From NCBI GenBank assembly GCA_026994795.1, contig JALWQB010000236.1, positions 1-37,010 on the forward strand: DNA of 37,010 nucleotides, read 5' to 3'. Shown here piece after piece: positions 6,688 through 21,195 of the stretch. Made by a program: the position numbers and the translations under genes. Position 1 is the first letter of the stretch; each line of letters starts with the position of its first letter. A model generated the notes under the pieces. That model worked only from the letters and a program-made list of their open reading frames with translations, had not been told where the DNA came from and did not search any database. The DNA comes from Deltaproteobacteria bacterium (lineage in GTDB: Bacteria; Desulfobacterota; Dissulfuribacteria; Dissulfuribacterales; Dissulfuribacteraceae).

Positions 6688-7941
6688 TTAATCCGCTTTT
6701 TTTCGCAAAAAAGTTGGGAGTTCAAGCTCATTTATATCAAGCTCTTCAAGGCTTTTTATTTGCGATACCTCCTTTTTCTTTTTAATAGAGTGAGTTGATG
6801 CCGCTGTCCCCCCTGTGGCCGCTGCCCTCTTTAATTCCTCAAGTTTTATCACTGTAGTCTCACTCCTTGTAGCATAGAAACCATCCCTTGAAAGGTCGTC
6901 AAGGTTCGTAACAGTCTCAGTCTCACTGTCGGCAAGCTCATTGTCTTTTCCAATCCCGGTTGCGATTACAGTAACCCGTATTTCATCTCCTAATCCCTCG
7001 TCAGGCATAACCCCCCATATTATAATGGCGTCTTCATCCGCCTCTTCGTAGATAAGGCTTGATGCCTCTTCAACTTCATCATAGGAAAGGGCATCAGGGC
7101 TTGCAGTGATATTCATCAAGATGCCTTTTGCCCCATTTATGGTGATGTCCTCAAGAAGGGGGTTTGCAATTGCCATCCTTACCGCCTCTACTGCCCTCCG
7201 CTCGCCAGAGGCAATGCCAGTTCCCATTAATGCAAGTCCCATCTCAGACATAATGGTCTTTACGTCTGCAAAGTCAACGTTGACATAGCCCGGCACCACT
7301 ATAAGGTCAGAAATGCCCCTTACGGCATAATACAATACCTCATCCGCCTTTTTAAACAGTTGAAAAAAGGGGGTCTTACTGTCACTAAGGTTTTTGAGCC
7401 TGTCATTTGGTATAGTAATTATCGTATCTACCACCTTTTTAAGCTCTTCAAGCCCCTGCTCCGCAAATTCCCTCCTCTTTTTACCCTCAAAGAGAAATGG
7501 CTTGGTAACTACTCCTACGGTAAGGGCGCCAAGGTCTTTGCTTATTTCCGCAATTATAGGTGCGGCCCCTGTCCCTGTGCCTCCGCCCATGCCTGCCGTA
7601 ATAAATACCATATCGCTCCCCTCAAGCGATGCCCTTATATCATCTGCGCTTTCTTCAGCAGCCTGTCTTCCTACCTCTGGCCTTGCCCCTGCGCCAAGGC
7701 CCTTTGTTATATTTCGTCCAAGTTGTATCTTTACTAATGCCTTTGAACGATTGAGGTGCTGCGCATCGGTATTGGCGGCAATAAAATCCACTCCCCTCAA
7801 GTTTGATTCTATCATGTTATTTACGGCGTTTCCCCCGCCTCCGCCAACCCCTATTACCCTGATTCGGGCTGAAAGCGATTCAGTCTCATTTTCAATGAAC
7901 TCAATCCCCATATTTTCATTCATGTCTTTTTTATTTGGCAT
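6688..7941 (-). CDS. ftsZ: Cell division protein FtsZ
   Basis: FtsZ is the tubulin-like GTPase that polymerises into the Z-ring at midcell. The 417-residue protein shows the glycine-rich loop [13 protein letters not shown] (31-43), the tubulin signature GGGTGTG (119-125), and the catalytic T7 loop NVDFAD (221-226). A variable linker (about 345-390) leads to the conserved C-terminal peptide [11 protein letters not shown] (407-417), the docking site for FtsA and other partners. It is the last gene of the dcw cluster and is separated from ftsA by 49 bases. It converges on the gspC-like gene with a 53-base gap in which I see no clear terminator hairpin. Confidence 0.98.
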
Positions 7942-7990: not shown

Positions 7991-9238
7991 CTAAATTCCA
8001 AACCAGGATTTCATCCTGTTGGCAACCCTGTCAAATATATTTTTATCCCTGATCCTGAACTTCTTCTTCGGCGTCCTTTCAGCCCCATGTAATAACAGCC
8101 CTACGGCAGTGGCGAATTGAGGGGCGTTAATCTCTTCGGTAAGCCCTGTTATGCCCTTTGGAAATCCTATCCTTGTTGGAAGGTCAAATATTTGGTCAGC
8201 CATTTCCGCAAGTCCAGGCAGAAGGGCTGAGCCTCCAGTAATAACCACGCCTGATGCCAGTAAATCCTTAAATTTTGTGCGTCTTATCTCTTGGTCCAGA
8301 AGAGAAAGGGTCTCTTCAACACGAGGCTCAATAATTTCAGATAATATATGACGGGAAAGAAGCCGCGGTTTTCTGCCGCCCACGCTCGGTACCTCTATCA
8401 TCTCATCAGGCTTTACATAGGCGCTTATGCAGTTTCCAAATTTAATCTTTATATTTTCAGCCTCTGACATAGGCGTTCTCAGGCCAACTGCAATGTCATT
8501 AGTAAGGTTATTGCCTCCAAGCCCGAGAACGCTCGTATGTTTAATTGTGCCATCAGTAAATATGGCAAGGTCAGTAGTGCCTCCTCCAAAGTCTATAAGG
8601 GCCACGCCAAGGTCCTTTTCCTCCTCAGTCAGCGTTGCATGAGCAGATGCAAGGGGCTGCAGCACAATATCTTCAACATCTAATCCTGCCCTGTTTGCGC
8701 ACTTTATGAGGTTTTGGGCAGCGGTTACAGCCCCTGTTACTATGTGAACCTTTGCCTCAAGCCTTACCCCTGTCATGCCAATCGGGTCCAGTATCCCCCC
8801 TTGGTCATCTACAATATATTCTTGAGGCAGGCAGTGAATAAGCTCTCTGTCAAGGGGGATGGCAACGGCCTTTGCCGCATCCAGTACCTTTATGACATCT
8901 TCTTCCGTAACTTCATCACCTTTTATAGCTATCACTCCATGACTGTTAAAGCCCTTTATGTGGCTTCCTGCAATGCCAATCAGCACCTGACTTATTTCAC
9001 AATCCGCCATCTCTTCAGCGTCTTCAATCGCATGTTGAATGGAATTAACAGTGCTTTCAATATTTACCACCACGCCTTTTCTAAGGCCAACAGAAGGATG
9101 AGTGCCAATGCCAATAACCTCTATCTGTCCATTATCGTCAGCAATGCCTACAAGGGCGCATATCTTTGTTGTCCCTATATCAAGGCCAACTATTATATCC
9201 CCGTCAACGCTCCCTCTTTGCTTTGACATTTCATTCAT
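7991..9238 (-). CDS. ftsA: Cell division protein FtsA
   Basis: FtsA is the actin-like ATPase that tethers FtsZ filaments to the inner membrane and recruits later divisome proteins. The 415-residue protein has the phosphate-1 motif VGLDIGTTKICALVG (about 17-31), the second phosphate loop IDFGGGTTDLAIF, the adenosine loop VVITGGSALLPGL, and the SHS2-type 1C subdomain region between them. It ends in an amphipathic helix (FDRVANRMKSWFGI, 402-415), the expected membrane-targeting sequence. It lies between ftsQ and ftsZ, the canonical order. Nothing in the sequence indicates loss of function. Confidence 0.97.
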   Translation of the reverse strand: MNEMSKQRGSVDGDIIVGLDIGTTKICALVGIADDNGQIEVIGIGTHPSVGLRKGVVVNIESTVNSIQHAIEDAEEMADCEISQVLIGIAGSHIKGFNSHGVIAIKGDEVTEEDVIKVLDAAKAVAIPLDRELIHCLPQEYIVDDQGGILDPIGMTGVRLEAKVHIVTGAVTAAQNLIKCANRAGLDVEDIVLQPLASAHATLTEEEKDLGVALIDFGGGTTDLAIFTDGTIKHTSVLGLGGNNLTNDIAVGLRTPMSEAENIKIKFGNCISAYVKPDEMIEVPSVGGRKPRLLSRHILSEIIEPRVEETLSLLDQEIRRTKFKDLLASGVVITGGSALLPGLAEMADQIFDLPTRIGFPKGITGLTEEINAPQFATAVGLLLHGAERTPKKKFRIRDKNIFDRVANRMKSWFGI

Positions 9239-9299: not shown

Positions 9300-10100
9300 T
9301 TATACCTTTTTCAAATAAGCAACAGCCTTATCCTTTCCCATAAACAGTTCAACCTTTTTTACCTCATTATATTTCCCAGATGAATATAAATGATATATTA
9401 TCCTTTCGCCACGCCTGAACTGGGTGGCAATTGGCACATCAAGAGAAAATATAAGCGGTATCTTTGAGCGTTTTGTGGTAAGGATTAACTGTTTCCCTTT
9501 TAAGGCTATTGACTCTACATTTTGCTCACATAACATCTTGCCCTTTTTTCTTATAAGAGTTAAAAGCTCCTTTAAAAACGCTGTGTTTCCTTCTGATATC
9601 CCAGCCTTTATGTTCTTAATGCCTTTAACCTCCAGAAGACCTGTAATTTCCTCCTGTTTTGCCCTTTTAAAAACCTTTCCAGAGTCGTCAATAAGATAGC
9701 AATCTTTAGCGCTTCTCATATAACATATTGGCGCTCTCTCTATTATGCGTATAGAAAGGGTATGGGGAAAAGACGGCCTGATAACCGCGTCCTTTATCCA
9801 CGGATTTTTTAATATCCTCTCTCTTATTGCCCCCTTATCTATTGCCATAAGGTTATCGCCAAGGCGTACTGGGATTTCATTCAATACCCATTGCTCCTTT
9901 ATCCGCTTAATGCCTTTAACCTCTATGTTTCTTATTGAAAAGATTGAGCTTTTTTGTAAGTAGGCATAAGAAAAAGATATTCCATAATATGCACCTGTTG
10001 CTGAAAATACTATGAGCATAATAAGAGAGATAAGCCTCAAAACGGCCTTTATCTTTTGTCCCCTCTTTCTGTTTTGCCGTAAGCCCTTTCTGAAAGCCAT
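9300..10100 (-). CDS. ftsQ: Cell division protein FtsQ (DivIB)
   Basis: FtsQ is the bitopic scaffold that holds FtsL, FtsB and FtsI in the divisome. The 266-residue protein has a basic cytoplasmic N-terminus (RKGLRQNRKRGQKIK), a transmembrane helix (about 20-45), a POTRA domain beginning IFSIRNIEVKGIKRIKEQWVLNEIPVRLGDNLMAI (segment about 54-88), and the following FtsQ/DivIB domain with WIKDAVIRPSFPHTLSIRIIER. The length is typical. It lies 35 bases downstream of murB and 61 bases upstream of ftsA. Because the FtsI-like protein in this cluster appears catalytically dead, the FtsQ-FtsL scaffold may be the part of this complex under normal selection. Confidence 0.93.
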   Translation of the reverse strand: MAFRKGLRQNRKRGQKIKAVLRLISLIMLIVFSATGAYYGISFSYAYLQKSSIFSIRNIEVKGIKRIKEQWVLNEIPVRLGDNLMAIDKGAIRERILKNPWIKDAVIRPSFPHTLSIRIIERAPICYMRSAKDCYLIDDSGKVFKRAKQEEITGLLEVKGIKNIKAGISEGNTAFLKELLTLIRKKGKMLCEQNVESIALKGKQLILTTKRSKIPLIFSLDVPIATQFRRGERIIYHLYSSGKYNEVKKVELFMGKDKAVAYLKKV

Positions 10101-12513: not shown

Positions 12514-13695
12514 TTATCCTTTCTTATTTGTCTCTTTATTTGTCATTATCTTAATCATCTCTTCCGCTACTATCTTTGCAGCGTCAGGACGGGCCAGTTT
12601 TTTTGCAGCAACGCTCATTGCCTTTAAGCGCTGAGGAGACCTCAGCGTATCTTCTATTGTTGAGGCAAGCCTTTCAGGGCCGACATGCGATTCCTCAAGC
12701 ACAATAGATGCCCCTGCCCCCTGAAGCTCCTTTGCATTTTCAAGCTGATGCCCTGATGCTGCATGAGGGTAGGGGATAAGTATTGAAGGGGTTGCAGTAA
12801 TTGAAAGCTCAGCGCATGTCCCGGCGCCTGCCCTGCATATTACAAGGTCTGCCCAAAGATATGCATCTTTCATGTTGTCTATGAATGGCACCACATTTGC
12901 CTTTATGGCAGCATCATTATATATCTTTTGGGCATACTCCATGTCGTTTTTCCCTGTCTGATGGACTGCTTCAATCTTCATACCGCTCTTTGCCAGTATA
13001 GAAAGGGATGCGCTTACAAGCCTGTTTATGGCGCGCGCCCCTTGGCTTCCGCCAATAGTCAGTATCCTCCACGGCCTATTGCCATTTGCCTGAAAATCTC
13101 TTTTAAATTCGCCAACCGTAAGAAATTCTTCCCTTACGGGATTGCCAGTGAGCATGGTCTTATTCTTTGGAAACCACCTTTCAGCCCCCTTAAAACTTAT
13201 AAAGATCTTTTTTGAAAATCTGCCGCCAAGCCTGTTGGTAAGGCCGGGAATGACATTTTGCTCATGTAATACTACAGGCACACGGGATAGATATGCGGCG
13301 ATTATTACAGGGCCCGCAACATATCCTCCAATCCCGAGCAAAATATCAGGAGAAAACGCCCTTAATATACCCCTTGCCTTAATTATGGAAAGGGGCAATA
13401 AAAAACCTCCCTTTAATAGGTTTTTAAGCTCAACCCCGTAAAATGGACGGGCATCAATCCATTTATATTCAAATTTATATTTAACCTCCTTTGTTTTAAG
13501 TATCCTTTTTTCTACTTCCCTGCCTGTCCCTATCCACATTACCTCTATTGGAATACTGTCAGAAATGGCCTCTAATATAGAAAGCCCTGGGAATATATGC
13601 CCCCCTGTGCCGCCTCCGCATACAGCAACCCTGAATATATCCCTTTTTTCTATATTATCACCTGTTTTTTTTGAGTTAAAGTTTAAAGACGGCAT
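12514..13695 (-). CDS. murG: Lipid II synthase MurG (GlcNAc transferase)
   Basis: MurG transfers GlcNAc from UDP-GlcNAc to lipid I at the cytoplasmic face of the inner membrane to make lipid II. The glycine loop VAVCGGGTGGHIFPGLSI marks the N-terminal Rossmann domain; HEQNVIPGLTNR, GGSQGAR and the C-terminal donor-site run VICRAGAGTCAEL are all present. The open frame continues upstream to 13800, but the ATG at 13695 (MPSLNFNSKKTG) is chosen. It gives about 393 residues, places the glycine loop near the N-terminus, and has a GGGGAAAGG purine run upstream. This start overlaps the end of murD by 20 bases. In most dcw clusters ftsW lies between murD and murG; here the overlap leaves no room for it. 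Confidence 0.94.
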   Translation of the reverse strand: MPSLNFNSKKTGDNIEKRDIFRVAVCGGGTGGHIFPGLSILEAISDSIPIEVMWIGTGREVEKRILKTKEVKYKFEYKWIDARPFYGVELKNLLKGGFLLPLSIIKARGILRAFSPDILLGIGGYVAGPVIIAAYLSRVPVVLHEQNVIPGLTNRLGGRFSKKIFISFKGAERWFPKNKTMLTGNPVREEFLTVGEFKRDFQANGNRPWRILTIGGSQGARAINRLVSASLSILAKSGMKIEAVHQTGKNDMEYAQKIYNDAAIKANVVPFIDNMKDAYLWADLVICRAGAGTCAELSITATPSILIPYPHAASGHQLENAKELQGAGASIVLEESHVGPERLASTIEDTLRSPQRLKAMSVAAKKLARPDAAKIVAEEMIKIMTNKETNKKG

Positions 13696-15199
13696 CTTTA
13701 AATGCCTTTCCCCTCTCTTTATAATTGTTAAACAGGTCAAAACTTGCGCATGCTGGAGAAAACAGCACAACATCTCCTTTTGCCGCATGGCGATAAGCAA
13801 GCCTTACTCCCTGCGTTATAATATGATTTCCATTAGGCGCATCAGTAGAATTACGATTTTTATTGTTTATTACCAGAATATCACAATGCCCTGCCATTGC
13901 CTTTTCAAGGTCTCTGGCATCTTTTCCAAACAATATGGCAAGTTTTACCTTTTTTAAAAGCAGCGGGTCGTTTAATGGAGAAAAGTCCTGTCCCTTTTTA
14001 AGGCCGCCGGCAAGCAGTATGATGCCGCTATCAAATGAGTTTAATGCGCTTATCAGGGCATCAATATTGGTTGCCTTTGAATCATTTACAAATGTTATCT
14101 CATCAATCTCCCTTACTATCTCAAGCCTGTGCTCAAGGGGTATAAATTGAGAGATTGCCTGTTGAATTTCCTCCTGCGCTACATTTGACAGCCTTGCCAT
14201 CAGTATTGATGCATATATATTTTTGAGGTTATGCCTTCCAATGAGGCTTATCCCATTGAGATTATACAGCTCCTTAGAGCCGTCAGGGAGCGTTACAGTC
14301 AGGGCCTTGCCCCCTTGTGAAGAGGTATTTTGCATCTTTTCATCTTTAATTTCAATATGTTCAGGAATTATTAAAAGTCTTTTTCCATAGTCTTCAGGGT
14401 TAAACATTGCTGGAGAGACGGCAGTTAAGAGCCTCAGCGCCTCCTCGCCTATGATGCCGTATCCATTTGGCTTTAACAGAGAGAATAACCTTGCCTTGCT
14501 CATTGCGTATTGCTCAATGTCTTTATAACGCTCTAAGTGGTCTTGAGAGATATTCAGCAATACCGCCACATCAAGCAAATGATGCTCATCATGCCTTCCA
14601 TGAGGAAAGAGGTCTAATTGAAAGCTGCTTATTTCAATAACAAGCCTTGCCTTATCATATCCTTTGACGGAATTGACATAAGAGATGAGAGGCGTTCCAA
14701 TGTTGCCGCATAGGATTACCTCTTTTTTATCTTTTTCTGCCTTCTTGCACTCCCAATCCCTTAAAATACTGCCAATAAGCGTTGTAACAGTGGTCTTTCC
14801 ATTTGTCCCTGTAATGCCTATTGAAAAGGCGTCAGTCATCAATGAAAGGCCAATGGCAAGCTCTCCTATAATTGGTATATTCTTCTTTCTTGCCTCCTTG
14901 AGGACTGGTATGGAAAGGGGTATCCCAGGGCTTGGGGATATTGCATCACAGGATAAGATTTGCCCTGAATGGCTTCCTCCCTCGCATAAGACCCCATTTT
15001 TATTGCACCATTCAATAACATCTTTTGGCCATGATGAAATCGGCCTTATATCGCTCAATAAAACATTTATCCCCTTCATCCTTGCCCACTTAGCCGTTTC
15101 AATACCGCTTTTTCCTGCCCCAAGCACTGCTATGCTATTTATCCCGTCTATGATGTCATATATGTCTTTTACTGTCTTCATTGCCTGTTGCGTTATCAT
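13676..15199 (-). CDS. murD: UDP-N-acetylmuramoylalanine-D-glutamate ligase MurD
   Basis: MurD adds D-glutamate to UDP-MurNAc-L-alanine. It has the Rossmann entry IAVLGAGKSGIETAKWA (about 23-39), the ATP loop GITGTNGKTTVTTLIG, LVIEISSFQLD, the NISQDHLERY metal/ATP region, and the C-terminal HRLE/NDSKATN segments. At 507 residues it is longer than the usual ~450. The extra length seems to come from charged insertions in the central domain (after SILRDWECKKAEKDKKE and around EHIEIKDEKMQNTSSQ), not from a fused domain. An alternative start six codons in (MKTVKDIYD) is possible. It lies 9 bases downstream of mraY and overlaps murG. Confidence 0.95.
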   Translation of the reverse strand: MITQQAMKTVKDIYDIIDGINSIAVLGAGKSGIETAKWARMKGINVLLSDIRPISSWPKDVIEWCNKNGVLCEGGSHSGQILSCDAISPSPGIPLSIPVLKEARKKNIPIIGELAIGLSLMTDAFSIGITGTNGKTTVTTLIGSILRDWECKKAEKDKKEVILCGNIGTPLISYVNSVKGYDKARLVIEISSFQLDLFPHGRHDEHHLLDVAVLLNISQDHLERYKDIEQYAMSKARLFSLLKPNGYGIIGEEALRLLTAVSPAMFNPEDYGKRLLIIPEHIEIKDEKMQNTSSQGGKALTVTLPDGSKELYNLNGISLIGRHNLKNIYASILMARLSNVAQEEIQQAISQFIPLEHRLEIVREIDEITFVNDSKATNIDALISALNSFDSGIILLAGGLKKGQDFSPLNDPLLLKKVKLAILFGKDARDLEKAMAGHCDILVINNKNRNSTDAPNGNHIITQGVRLAYRHAAKGDVVLFSPACASFDLFNNYKERGKAFKDAVFKL

Positions 15200-16337: not shown

Positions 16338-19300
16338 TCACTTCTCAACCATTAATCTGACTGCCCTTTCCATTGCCATCTTTCTTGAGCCTTTTATGAG
16401 TATCCATGAGCCCTCTGGAAACAGGTCGGTCTTTTTGCCTGCAATATTGTCCAGAAGGGCATCAGTATCACAGAATGCCATAGCCATTCCCTTATGAGAA
16501 TGGTTGTTAAAGGTCTTTTTCATAATTGAAGAAAACCTTCCTGCAAACAGCGCAATGCTTACGCCTGCATCAGAAAGGGCCTTTGCAATCTCAATATGAT
16601 ATTCCCCTGCCTTCTGGCCAAGCTCATACATATCTCCAATAATAGCGCACAGGCAATTTCCATTGCCAAGCTCCTTTAAGGTAGAAATGGCATTGACTAA
16701 TGAGGCAGGGTTTGCGTTATATGTATCATCAATAATATTCCACCCCATTTTAGGCGCTTTTATAAGGCATAACCGCCCATCAACAGGGCTTACGCCTTCA
16801 ATTCCCTTTATAATCTCATCCATATCCATCCTGTATGCAAGGCATATTGATATGGCGCACAAAAGGTTCTGGACATTGCCCATTCCCATAAGAGGGCTTT
16901 TAATGGCATGGATGCTATGAGATGATGCAGGATATTCATAGAGCTCTATATCAACTTCTATGTTGTTTGCCTCTCTTTTTTTGATATTATTTAGTTTTAT
17001 AATTTTTTCAAAATCCTTTCCCGCGTTCTTTAATTCGTTTTCAGTTATTGCCGTATTTATTGTATATCCAATTTTTTTTTGCCTTATTTTATGAAGATCC
17101 CTTTTTATGTATGTGTCATCTAAGTTTATACAGCATATACTATCTTCAGGCATTGCATGAAACAGGGTGAGCTTTTCCTCAGCTATTGCCTCAATGCTTT
17201 TAAGCCCTTCAAGGTGTGAGGGGCGTATATTGGTTACTGCCCCTATCGCTGGCGATGCTATTTGCGTAAGCCTTTTAATCTCGCCAGCTCTATTCATGCC
17301 AAGCTCCAATACAGCCGCATCATGCCCTGGTCCTGCGTTTAATATGGTTACTGGAAGCCCTATAAGGTTATTAAGGTTTTTATATGTCCCGATAACATTG
17401 TATCGTTGCGATAAGACGCTTATGACTATCTCTTTGGTGGTAGTCTTGCCGCAACTGCCAGTAATGGCAATGGATGGAAGAGAGAGCAGTTGTTTATAGC
17501 GCCTTGCAAGCTCTCCAAGAAAGGATACAGTGTCAGAAGAGGTTATAAAGAACTTTATCTTTTCTATATCCTGTTTTTCTATGAGCCCTTTTGAGAGCAG
17601 GCCATCTATGTTAAGCCCTGATATTATCCCCATTGCCCCTTTTTTAATGGCATCTCTTATAAACTTATGCCCGTCTGTGCGCTCGCCTTTTATCGCAATA
17701 AAGGCGTCTCCATAAAATATGAACCGTGAGTCCGTGGCAATGGAGGCAATTCGCTGCCCATCTTCCCCCTTTTCTATATGGGATTTTGTCCATTTTATCA
17801 ACTCGTCAGTCGTTATTGAAAGAGAGCCTGTGCGCCTCATCTCAAAGAGATTGTCATATTTTAATGCCCCGCCTGTTTTATCGCCATTGTCGCGCCTTGA
17901 ACGATTATCTATTGAGCAAAGCGCATCTCGGACTGCCTCTTTATCAGAGAAGCGGAGCTTTTTATCCTTTACTATCTGAAATTGCTCATGCCCCTTTCCA
18001 AGTATCAGGATATTACACTGTCCTCCTTTTAATTTCCTGTGGTTTGCAATTTCTATTGCATATCTGATTGCATCAGCCCTGTTTATTACGCACCTTACAT
18101 CAGCACCCCTTGATACGCCCGTGAGCATGGCGTCAATTATTGACTCAGGGGGCTCATTTCTTGGATTATCAGTTGTAAAGATTGCAGTATCAGAAAATTG
18201 CGAGGCGATCTCCCCCATTACAGGGCGCTTTCCTGCATCTCTATCGCCGCCGCATCCTATTACAGTGATAATATTTGTCTTAGGGGAAGAAATGATACGG
18301 CCATTGCCCTCATCAAGGGCTCCAATACGCCTTATCTCTTTCAATATTGCCTTGACTGCATCTGGCGTATGGGCATAGTCAACAAATATATTGAGGCCAG
18401 GCCTGCTTTCTACTGGCTCGCACCTTCCTGACACATAAGGGCACCGGCTTATGCCATCTATAATGGCAGGGTAGGGGATGGTTAGCGCAATAGCCCCGCC
18501 TATGGCTGACAGGATATTATAGGCGTTAAACCTTCCTATAAGCCTTGAGATTATTTCTATTTCAATTATGTCATTTCCCCCTTTTATAATTCCGGGGTTA
18601 TCTGTGTTATTCACCTGTAAGGCAACTTTCATCTTCGTGCCCTTAAAAGATGTCATTATTTCCTTTGCCCTTATATCTGCGTCCTTATTGTTTATCCCAT
18701 AGGTTATAACGCCTCTGCCGTTTTCCCTTAACTCTTCCCAAAGCCTTTTACCATAGGCATCATCTATATTGACGACAGAAGCAACAGGCTGATATTCAAA
18801 AAAAAGCCTCTTTTTTGCATTAAAATACCCTTGTATATCAGCATGATAGTCAAGGTGGTCCCGTCCTAAGTTGGTAAAGACAGCGCACTTTATGGGGATG
18901 CCCCATAGCCTGAACTGGTCTATTGCATGGCTTGAGGCCTCAATTAAAAGATGGGTTACCCCTTGGCTTTTCATCTCGCTAATGAGCATGTTAAGCCTTA
19001 CTGGGTCAGGCGTTGTAAGAGGGGCATTTATGACCTTATCATTAATTTTATAGTATATTGTGCCAATTATGCCAGTTTTATAGCCACATGCCCTTAATAT
19101 AGCCTCTAATAAATGGGTAAAAGTTGTTTTCCCGTTTGTCCCTGTAACTGCTACAATGTTTATAGGGAGGTTTTCGTTGTTTTCATAAAATACAGAGCTT
19201 ACAATGGCGGCCGCCTTTCTGGGGTTGGATACATAAATGGCTGGTATGTCAGGGGAATGATGAAAATCGTGTTGAAGGATTATGCAGCTTGCGCCATTTT

Positions 19301-19490
19301 TTATCGCCTCTTCTATGTAGTTGGCTCCGCTGTCTTTTGTCCCTTTTACGGCAATGAAAATATAGCCTTTTTTAATCTGCCTTGAGTCAAGGGCAATGCC
19401 CTTTATGTGCGCAGGAAGACTTCCCTTTATCCCTTTTATAATGCCTGCATTGTTTAGCGCCGTTATTATTCTGGATATTTCCATTATCAC
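16338..19490 (-). CDS. murE-murF: MurE-MurF fusion (UDP-MurNAc-tripeptide synthetase / MurNAc-pentapeptide ligase)
   Basis: One uninterrupted 1050-residue frame carries two successive Mur ligases. The N-terminal half (about 1-525) is MurE, with LDSRQIKKGYIFIAVKG, P-loop AVTGTNGKTTFTH (about 113-125), NLGRDHLDYH, and DNPRNEP at about 441-447, the motif linked to meso-diaminopimelate selection. A hydrophilic linker of about 25-35 residues follows. The C-terminal half (about 552-1050) is MurF, with TDSRFIFYGDAFIAIKGERTDGH, P-loop AITGSCGKTTTKE (about 674-686), GTYKNLNNLIGLPVTIL, and DDTYNANPASL. Together they add mDAP and then D-Ala-D-Ala to the stem peptide. The gene starts 4 bases inside the ftsI-like gene's 3' end. 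MurE-MurF fusions are known in some other bacteria, Bordetella for example. Neither half looks degraded. Confidence 0.95.
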   Translation of the reverse strand: MIMEISRIITALNNAGIIKGIKGSLPAHIKGIALDSRQIKKGYIFIAVKGTKDSGANYIEEAIKNGASCIILQHDFHHSPDIPAIYVSNPRKAAAIVSSVFYENNENLPINIVAVTGTNGKTTFTHLLEAILRACGYKTGIIGTIYYKINDKVINAPLTTPDPVRLNMLISEMKSQGVTHLLIEASSHAIDQFRLWGIPIKCAVFTNLGRDHLDYHADIQGYFNAKKRLFFEYQPVASVVNIDDAYGKRLWEELRENGRGVITYGINNKDADIRAKEIMTSFKGTKMKVALQVNNTDNPGIIKGGNDIIEIEIISRLIGRFNAYNILSAIGGAIALTIPYPAIIDGISRCPYVSGRCEPVESRPGLNIFVDYAHTPDAVKAILKEIRRIGALDEGNGRIISSPKTNIITVIGCGGDRDAGKRPVMGEIASQFSDTAIFTTDNPRNEPPESIIDAMLTGVSRGADVRCVINRADAIRYAIEIANHRKLKGGQCNILILGKGHEQFQIVKDKKLRFSDKEAVRDALCSIDNRSRRDNGDKTGGALKYDNLFEMRRTGSLSITTDELIKWTKSHIEKGEDGQRIASIATDSRFIFYGDAFIAIKGERTDGHKFIRDAIKKGAMGIISGLNIDGLLSKGLIEKQDIEKIKFFITSSDTVSFLGELARRYKQLLSLPSIAITGSCGKTTTKEIVISVLSQRYNVIGTYKNLNNLIGLPVTILNAGPGHDAAVLELGMNRAGEIKRLTQIASPAIGAVTNIRPSHLEGLKSIEAIAEEKLTLFHAMPEDSICCINLDDTYIKRDLHKIRQKKIGYTINTAITENELKNAGKDFEKIIKLNNIKKREANNIEVDIELYEYPASSHSIHAIKSPLMGMGNVQNLLCAISICLAYRMDMDEIIKGIEGVSPVDGRLCLIKAPKMGWNIIDDTYNANPASLVNAISTLKELGNGNCLCAIIGDMYELGQKAGEYHIEIAKALSDAGVSIALFAGRFSSIMKKTFNNHSHKGMAMAFCDTDALLDNIAGKKTDLFPEGSWILIKGSRKMAMERAVRLMVEK

Positions 19491-20812
19491 TTCATCCCAA
19501 AGAGAAATTCAGTATTTGATTTTTCAAGCAATGATACGCCCTTTTTTAAGATTGTCTTAACGCCAGTAAAGGCCGCCCTTTTTCTTACAGGGTCAATCTT
19601 TGCGTCTTTTATGGCATAAATATATGCTAATCTGGGATTATCCTTTGGCCAGTATCCAAGGGAGACCATTTCATATTTGGGGGAGCGGCTGTCTTTATTT
19701 TTCAACACGCTTACGATAGAAGGGGCGCTTGAAGAGGAAAGCGCCTCTTTTAATTTATCTTTTTTTTCTTGAGTAAGCCAGCTTATTTGACCTTTATTAT
19801 TGTTAGCTTTGCATACGGCGTTAGATGAGATTGTGTTGTCTGATGTATGCAGGACAAGACACGGAGATATGGGACCTGTCTTATTTATAAGAGATGAAAA
19901 TGCGGATAATATGTTAAGCGCTGTGGATTTAAGCTCTTCTTCAAATAGCCTATAGGAGAATACAGGGACTTTCCCATGACCCTCTCCAATTCCAAGCTCT
20001 ATCAGCTCCTTTGTAATGGAATGTTTTTCCCTTGAAAAACCCTGTAAAAAGCTATGGCTCCATGGGGACCATAGCCTCAGCCTCCCATCCGCCTCTGCCT
20101 CTATCCAGCGTATCGCCCCTTTATCTGTTATAAGGTCATCTCTTCTCAGGCCATTATTCGGGCATGTTGATGAAGTCGTTAGCCATCTTATAGGAAGAGA
20201 GATGAGGCTTGCGCTAAGGAGGCCATCCTGAAGGTTAAGAGCCCCTTTATATGAGGCGGCAATCACCCCGCCAGTGTCAACATCCATGATGACAAGACAG
20301 CCTGATGATGCCCTGAGGCGCCTTAAATGGGCGTTTAACATCTCATCTGCCCGTAACTGGCTCTCTCTTTCAAGGGTAAGAAAGACATCCTGCGCATTTG
20401 ATAATTGCCTGTTCATTAAAAGCTCTATACCGCTTATTCCTGTATAAAACCTGTCAACTGCCCCAATAATATCTCTTGCCATATCATTATATGGATATAT
20501 GCGTTTAGGGGGCGTTGCTGCATGTATGGCGTCTATGGCCGGAGATTGATCCCTATCCCTTACGGGAGATGACGGGCTGAAGGCCAGAAGCGTCCCTGTC
20601 CTGTCTAATATATTGCCGCGAAGCGGGGTAAAGGATGGAGTTATCTTTGCCTCCAATTCAAGGCGTGCCCCTTTTAAAGAAAAGGCTATAAGGGGAACTA
20701 ATAAAAGAAAGAGCATCACAATAAACGATGCCCTTTTCTTGAGGATGATCAAGTGTTTTTTGTCCCAGCGCTCAACAGAAAATAGGTTAACGCCCCTTAC
20801 ATCCTTTCCCAT
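19487..20812 (-). CDS. ftsI: FtsI-like class B penicillin-binding protein, apparently catalytically inactive
   Basis: The position between ftsL and murE, the single transmembrane helix (about 29-47), and the dimerisation-domain motifs RGNILDRTGTLLAF (65-78) and KRIYPYNDMARDIIG followed by TGISGIELLMNRQL (103-137) identify an FtsI/PBP3 homologue. LTLERESQLRADEML and GCLVIMDVDTGGVIAAS lead into the transpeptidase fold. From there it departs from the family. The segment where SxxK belongs reads SLISLPIRWLTT (about 202-213) with no lysine. The SxN region reads FSREKHS (259-265). The stretch that should hold KTG is replaced by a short serine-rich and charged segment (358-380). The closing strands SLGYWPKDNPRLAYIYAI are recognisable. 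At 441 residues it is shorter than the usual 550-600. The frame is open, so this looks like a retained pseudoenzyme rather than a decaying gene. Confidence 0.85.
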   Translation of the reverse strand: MGKDVRGVNLFSVERWDKKHLIILKKRASFIVMLFLLLVPLIAFSLKGARLELEAKITPSFTPLRGNILDRTGTLLAFSPSSPVRDRDQSPAIDAIHAATPPKRIYPYNDMARDIIGAVDRFYTGISGIELLMNRQLSNAQDVFLTLERESQLRADEMLNAHLRRLRASSGCLVIMDVDTGGVIAASYKGALNLQDGLLSASLISLPIRWLTTSSTCPNNGLRRDDLITDKGAIRWIEAEADGRLRLWSPWSHSFLQGFSREKHSITKELIELGIGEGHGKVPVFSYRLFEEELKSTALNILSAFSSLINKTGPISPCLVLHTSDNTISSNAVCKANNNKGQISWLTQEKKDKLKEALSSSSAPSIVSVLKNKDSRSPKYEMVSLGYWPKDNPRLAYIYAIKDAKIDPVRKRAAFTGVKTILKKGVSLLEKSNTEFLFGMK

Positions 20813-20847: not shown

Positions 20848-21195
20848 TTAATAGCCAATATGGACAGTATCAGAGCTTTTAGGCGGATGAAGCCTGAGGG
20901 CCTTTCCAATCTTTTTAAGATTTTCAGCGCTTGTTAATATTGTAATTTTTTCTTTATATTCTCTCTGCTTATTCTTTAATGCAGTGATTTCCATCCTCTG
21001 CTCATCTATTTTATTAATTATATCAGTAAGTTTTAATGTGGTTATAACACAGCAGATTAGAAGGGCCATCGCGATTACGCCAATTATAACGGTGCGCGGG
21101 GTTATGGTGAGGTTAATGGCTGCCTTATCCCTTTGCTTGAGCCTTGCCTCATATTGTATCCCCCCAACCTTTATGCTTGAAGCCCTTGAGCTCAT
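20848..21195 (-). CDS. ftsL: Cell division protein FtsL-like
   Basis: This small bitopic protein of 115 residues has a cytoplasmic N-terminus, one transmembrane helix (about 36-54, VIIGVIAMALLICCVITTL) and a periplasmic leucine-zipper-type coiled coil (about 58-90), ending in ENLKKIGKALRLHPP, which resembles the FtsL tail. FtsL sequences diverge strongly; the call rests on size, topology and position between rsmH and the ftsI-like gene. FtsL with FtsB and FtsQ normally activates the FtsW-FtsI synthase. A separate ftsB gene is not in the window. Confidence 0.85.
   Translation of the reverse strand: MSSRASSIKVGGIQYEARLKQRDKAAINLTITPRTVIIGVIAMALLICCVITTLKLTDIINKIDEQRMEITALKNKQREYKEKITILTSAENLKKIGKALRLHPPKSSDTVHIGY

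Follow-up and report, generated by a model that had tools for sequence, protein, structure and literature searches.

Can a bacterium keep the body of FtsI and dispense with its activity? FtsW and FtsI are treated as a nearly universal and essential pair, and FtsI is a β-lactam target. The question is raised by a 37,010-nucleotide stretch of DNA (hereafter the window; contig JALWQB010000236.1, assembly GCA_026994795.1) from a member of the order Dissulfuribacterales, in which the gene at the ftsI position of the division and cell wall (dcw) cluster was predicted, from its letters alone, to encode an FtsI homologue without any of the three transpeptidase motifs. Comparison with relatives bears this out: the gene is a true FtsI orthologue that appears to have turned into a conserved, catalytically dead protein, here termed pseudo-FtsI (pFtsI). 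The membrane anchor, the pedestal and, judging from a structural model, elements of the transpeptidase fold are kept, while the residues for acyl transfer are missing from the sequence. The features of the gene are as follows.

19487..20812, minus strand: pFtsI, FtsI orthologue without transpeptidase motifs, 441 amino acids (aa), ATG start (open reading frame [ORF], Pfam, alignments, model)
20669..20731, minus strand: predicted N-terminal membrane helix core, residues about 28-48 (AlphaFold model)
20594..20620, minus strand: RGNILDRTG at residues 65-73, where the pedestal starts; also conserved in catalytic FtsI (alignment)
20423..20539, minus strand: rest of the pedestal/PBP_dimer, residues 92-130 (R104, P107, G117, G125, G128, E130), with columns conserved both in order sequences and in catalytic FtsI (PF03717 match at 92-121)
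20189..20215, minus strand: SxxK place, residues 200-208, without Ser-x-x-Lys (alignment)
20060..20071, minus strand: W248-S-P-W251 at the SxN place (alignment; Trp in 35/44 order sequences)
19673..19735, minus strand: residues 360-380, flanking the site from which KTG was deleted (its columns are a gap in the alignment)
19646..19657, minus strand: G386-Y-W-P389, conserved strand after the KTG place (G in 43/44, P in 42/44 order sequences)

In an alignment of 116 sequences, SxxK, SxN, and KTG are kept in 0, 0, and 0 of 44 Dissulfuribacterales sequences at the FtsI position, a set that includes some partial sequences and some second readings of one genome; outgroup FtsIs carry the same motifs in 50/50, 50/50, and 49/50 cases. 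No intact motif was placed in the pocket of the window protein upon alignment with solved FtsI sequences and the 50 catalytic FtsIs, and a normal ftsI at the locus was found in no relative within the order (0/44). The original prediction had pointed to S205-L-P-I208 as the remnant of SxxK; its numbering is correct, but the SxxK columns fall on S-L-I-S-L instead. The absence of SxN and the deletion of the KTG block were called correctly. Deletion of the KTG segment, to which the short length had been attributed, belongs to one of three causes: the QxTGIDLPGE stretch was lost along with KTG, the pedestal carries a deletion, and the C-terminal PASTA domain kept by most relatives is gone. Retention of the anchor, RGNILDRTG, and the dimerisation region was likewise borne out by a modelled helix at residues 18-56, the motif itself, and a PBP_dimer (PF03717) match. 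The latter is the sole Pfam match of the window protein (E 1.1e-4, just under the gathering cut-off, which relatives exceed); the Pfam Transpeptidase domain gave none. A profile built from 33 order sequences matched Pseudomonas aeruginosa FtsI at E 9e-47, with the EPGSTVK and GKSGT regions of the latter aligned to motif-less residues. Text-pattern matches to SxxK or KTG in L084, L086, and L222 were rejected, as they lie away from the motif columns.

The loss is conserved throughout the order. A search of 60 relatives with the window protein retrieved matches across Dissulfuribacterales, and two genomes from other genera of the same family (G001 and G002) carry a likewise short and motif-less protein at this locus; versions of this type in the two genera are 46% and 38% identical to the window protein over the matched stretches. 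In other families of the order, pFtsI is mostly 500-600 aa long. It lies upstream of murE in each order relative, and downstream of ftsL/mraW in all clusters examined; wherever the contig covers the region, murG comes straight after murD. In three outgroup genomes from the phylum, the arrangement is ftsI (595-664 aa)-murE...murD-ftsW-murG. The state of the window genome is also that of the closed genome (G006, one contig, 2,025,450 bp) of the cultured Dissulfurimicrobium hydrothermale, whose strain Sh68T is a motile Gram-negative short rod of Dissulfuribacterales (PMC8780430); the absence of FtsW thus holds in a closed genome. Another homologue, L084 (DFBQ01000238.1, 17,865 bases), is from UBA3076, that is, Seep-SRB2, of order Dissulfuribacterales, class Dissulfuribacteria, Desulfobacterota (PMC10553843), and its contig is presumably the pFtsI contig of order genome G024.

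Maintenance of the gene as a structural pseudo-FtsI, as originally proposed, is supported by this conservation, by its mode of selection, and by its predicted fold. By Nei-Gojobori counting, the ratio of nonsynonymous to synonymous substitution rates (dN/dS) in nine distinct close pairs is 0.15-0.34 for pFtsI, 0.15-0.27 for murE, and 0.15-0.39 for ftsL; pFtsI is under purifying selection, like its neighbours. No relaxed selection was found, and every family examined has an open frame. Positions with Arg, Gly, Pro, or Glu that are typical of the FtsI fold persist in 80-98% of order sequences. Conservation of the pedestal is 0.52 in pFtsI versus 0.49 in catalytic FtsI; that of the transpeptidase domain is looser, at 0.44 versus 0.56. 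AlphaFold modelled the window protein from a shallow alignment (28 rows) with a mean predicted local distance difference test score (pLDDT) of 64 and a predicted template modelling score (pTM) of 0.64; residues 21-40 exceed a mean pLDDT of 90, and residues 200-292 are unreliable. The best Foldseek matches of this model in the PDB are FtsI/PBP3 structures (P. aeruginosa PBP3/FtsI, 3pbn, E 4e-13, template modelling [TM] score only 0.48). The model of the Seep-SRB2 homologue (pLDDT 74, pTM 0.69) matches SpoVD at 7e-31 and PBP3 at 1e-29, with TM scores of 0.60-0.70. The models thus suggest a transpeptidase fold for the window protein.

A second loss, that of ftsW, had gone unnoticed in the original prediction. 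The window cluster reads mraZ, mraW, ftsL, pFtsI, murE-murF fusion, mraY, murD, murG, murC, murB, ftsQ, ftsA, ftsZ, with the following neighbours.

20848..21195, minus strand: ftsL, directly upstream of pFtsI (NCBIfam ftsL_broad, E 7.1e-5, below the curated cut-off, and position)
16338..19490, minus strand: murE-murF fusion, with a 4-base overlap with the pFtsI stop, as first reported for murE
13676..15199, minus strand: murD, ending against murG with no room for ftsW (ORF and neighbourhood)
12514..13800, minus strand: murG ORF, with MurG similarity from about 13641
9300..10100, minus strand: ftsQ (FtsQ-type POTRA; domain match)
7991-9238, minus strand: ftsA, intact
6688-7941, minus strand: ftsZ, intact

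The murE-murF fusion encodes one protein of 1050 aa; the two genes are separate in the closest relatives, G001 and G002. No ftsW lies between murD and murG in the window, nor in the rest of the genome (2.29 Mb, 275 contigs, 96% complete), which encodes a single SEDS (shape, elongation, division, and sporulation) protein, adjoining PBP2 on another contig. This protein falls in the RodA clade of a tree and keeps the HTDF motif, and the adjacent PBP2 has intact SxxK, SCD, and KTGT. Exactly one SEDS protein was found in 45 of 46 order genomes searched (none in the remaining one, which is 89% complete), including 35/35 that are ≥90% complete and ≤5% contaminated. Transpeptidase-domain proteins in the window genome number two, PBP2 and PBP1A, and its one GT51 domain is that of PBP1A; a single GT51 enzyme, PBP1A, was present in each of 8/8 order genomes tested. 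The glycan polymerases of the window genome are thus only RodA and PBP1A and its catalytic high-molecular-weight transpeptidases only PBP2 and PBP1A; genome-wide searches for transpeptidase-domain and SEDS proteins retrieved no FtsW-FtsI pair capable of catalysis.

Families f2 and f9 also encode a third catalytic transpeptidase, a stand-alone protein of 410-470 aa that carries SxxK, SxN, and KTG/KSG but lacks a pedestal. It adjoins an NtrC-type response regulator in L079 and L083. As the general replacement, this protein was rejected, since none was seen in f1, f4, f5, f6, f8, f10, or f11.

L078:2497-3906 (minus), L079:2382-3686 (minus), L080:2963-4192 (plus), L081:2686-4098 (plus), L083:2606-3913 (plus): stand-alone transpeptidase

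How far does this state extend? Relatives outside the order were gathered from a MurG-based contig scan, and the matches listed are a lower bound; among them, the same double loss occurs in two Desulfobulbaceae metagenome-assembled genomes, one from Thermodesulfatator, and others. A placement in Thermodesulfovibrionales was rejected, since Thermodesulfovibrio (L154) has a normal ftsW and FtsI. One SEDS protein was found in 9/9 genomes tested with an ftsW-less cluster (one of them in the order) and two in 8/9 comparison genomes. A survey of 394 phylum genomes ≥90% complete revealed single-SEDS families beyond Dissulfuribacterales, and the dcw cluster was read in 25 genomes from such families. 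In f25, f28, f39, f71, f72, f81, f95, and f103, ftsW is absent and the FtsI, 379-703 aa long, has no motifs; Desulfurivibrio alkaliphilus AHT2 (G229, f81; 3,097,763 bp; PMC5016858) is one of these genomes. Families f29, f89, and f108 differ in that their FtsI is still catalytic; f29 and f108 were rejected as members, the single SEDS protein there being FtsW. The opposite loss is seen in L224 (G404, f108) and L226 (G212, f29), where FtsW and catalytic FtsI are encoded in the dcw cluster, the SEDS count is one, and RodA is missing.

A tree of five concatenated genes (MraW-MraY-MurC-MurG-FtsA) joins the motif-less families and Dissulfuribacterales in a single clade (support 0.80, or 1.0 when f28 is left out), next to Desulfobacterales, which have normal FtsW/FtsI. 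Families f35 and f63, also ftsW-less, group together at another place in the tree (support 1.0); the FtsW/FtsI losses therefore probably happened at least twice. The state extends to Desulfobulbia, relatives of Thermodesulfatator, and others, the class names beyond those cited being tentative. In f35 and f63, the ORF upstream of murE (248-343 aa; L210-L215) comprises a membrane helix, a short FtsI remnant, and a PASTA-like C-terminus. These families also encode, at the ftsW site between murD and murG, a conserved, hydrophobic, polytopic protein of 261-264 aa with no Pfam family. It matches FtsW weakly by hhalign (E 0.005, probability 7%; RodA, E 0.35) and is possibly a degenerate FtsW, a lead only.

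L210:4087-4878 (minus), L211:4109-4891 (minus), L212:4707-5492 (minus), L213:4694-5482 (minus), L214:14084-14866 (plus), L215:14273-15055 (plus): hydrophobic ORF at the ftsW place

We put at about an even chance a broad picture: a multi-class Gram-negative clade would have no dedicated septal synthase; one RodA-PBP2 and, in most sampled lineages, one PBP1A would serve both elongation and division; and FtsI would be only a stepwise-eroding, non-catalytic adaptor or regulator. The same would have arisen independently in f35 and f63, where a 260 aa FtsW remnant may survive.

What, then, does a dead FtsI do? We consider it probable that FtsI has become a non-catalytic divisome adaptor and that RodA-PBP2, PBP1A, or both build the septal peptidoglycan. 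The loss of FtsW occurred in the same clade as that of the FtsI motifs. On this account, the dedicated septal synthase FtsW-FtsI was abandoned, which would have left FtsI conserved and catalytically dead. Polymerisation and cross-linking at the septum would fall to RodA-PBP2 and to PBP1A, the single class A enzyme; they are the septal candidates because no other such enzymes were found in the genome. Acting in the divisome, pFtsI would most likely stay bound to FtsL/FtsQ through its pedestal and would recruit or switch on RodA-PBP2 and/or PBP1A at the Z ring. We hold open which of the two is recruited and favour an adaptor role through FtsL/FtsQ. Published precedents lend this reading support: a class A PBP acts as septal synthase in Clostridioides difficile (PMC10693644), and PBP2b of Bacillus subtilis remains functional when catalytically dead (PMC12713402).

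Several points weigh against the adaptor role. A profile search did not find pFtsI in three order genomes, G011 (99% complete), G016, and G021. The protein is eroded to 379-455 aa in several families and to 250-340 aa in the second lineage, which fits a weakening role. The rationale from Bacillus subtilis, where activation of FtsW is believed to require the dead class B penicillin-binding protein (bPBP), does not transfer: FtsW was lost together with the FtsI motifs, so its activation cannot be why the dead protein is kept. Finally, the pFtsI of f9 and f2 (g4, g20) may, from its sequence, be a lipoprotein, unlike that of the window's family, and such an anchor could imply another location. The hydrophobic segment there ends in a conserved, lipobox-like Gly-Cys (ISGC, FVGC).

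L007-L009, L011-L018, L020-L022, L026-L028, L031-L033: pFtsI N-termini ending in Gly-Cys

An alternative modelled on Clostridioides difficile, where vegetative division proceeds without FtsW/FtsI through a class A PBP (PMC10693644), makes PBP1A alone the divisome synthase and pFtsI its activator in an Lpo-like role, rather than an adaptor for RodA-PBP2. We regard it as less probable than the adaptor reading, though not negligible. Beyond that precedent, it fits the single GT51 enzyme of all order genomes tested, and the lipobox-like N-termini of f9 and f2 and the PASTA C-termini of most relatives would suit a wall-sensing activator of PBP1A; yet in the window's own family the anchor is a plain membrane helix and PASTA is absent, and RodA-PBP2 is equally available. 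Decay into a functionless pseudogene is very improbable. The stepwise shortening across families (600-700 aa, 441 aa, about 385 aa, 250-340 aa) could be read in this way, but the frame is open in every family examined of a multi-class clade, the dN/dS values are low, and the structural residues, position, and murE overlap are preserved. Slightly more improbable still is that the same fold now holds a rebuilt, non-penicillin active site and works as an enzyme. New conserved aromatics specific to the order would be its raw material (W-[STG]-P-W at the former SxN place, W388, and Y397), but they form no nucleophile-base pattern and are missing outside the order, and the pocket region, residues 200-292, is the worst modelled part of the protein, with pLDDT below 50. 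An assembly or sequencing error or a strain-specific loss, conceivable for a 275-contig draft, is already refuted by the same state in closed genomes and in the 44 order sequences, none of which keeps any motif.

A large free-living group that includes cultured rod-shaped species has kept the body of FtsI and apparently dispensed with its activity; with FtsW lost as well, division in these cells must proceed with no dedicated FtsW-FtsI pair. This provides natural evidence on the structural versus catalytic share of FtsI's role and on whether a single SEDS-bPBP pair suffices for elongation as well as division. There is also a warning for annotation: motif-less proteins are labelled FtsI because the FGxGxxTGIDLPGE stretch still scores in the Pfam Transpeptidase model. 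A search of the literature available without subscription turned up no earlier account of an FtsI missing its motifs in these bacteria, of Dissulfuribacteria with a single SEDS protein, or of the clade-wide extent of that state.

Among known systems, FtsI/PBP3 of P. aeruginosa and Escherichia coli shares with pFtsI the position between ftsL and murE, the anchor, RGxIxDRxG, the pedestal, elements of the transpeptidase fold and, in many pFtsI relatives, the PASTA C-terminus; unlike it, pFtsI lacks SxxK, SxN, and KTG, and its genome lacks the FtsW partner. The same clade was touched upon when ftsW was reported absent in two cable bacteria and two Desulfobulbus genomes (Desulfobulbaceae; PMC7873302); FtsI was listed there as present and septal synthesis ascribed to its activity, the loss of its motifs going unnoticed. 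The C. difficile divisome (PMC10693644) likewise has no dedicated FtsW-FtsI synthase and leaves RodA-PBP2 and a class A PBP; here, in contrast, the SEDS protein is lost, the bPBP is dead, the cells are Gram-negative, and FtsA, FtsL, and FtsQ are kept. A catalytically dead B. subtilis PBP2b still fulfils its essential job (PMC12713402), which separates the structural role of a bPBP from catalysis, and C. difficile SpoVD S311A (PMC12713402) is likewise a dead divisome bPBP with a structural role. Those are engineered point mutants with their SEDS partner present, whereas pFtsI is natural, ancient, and without FtsW.
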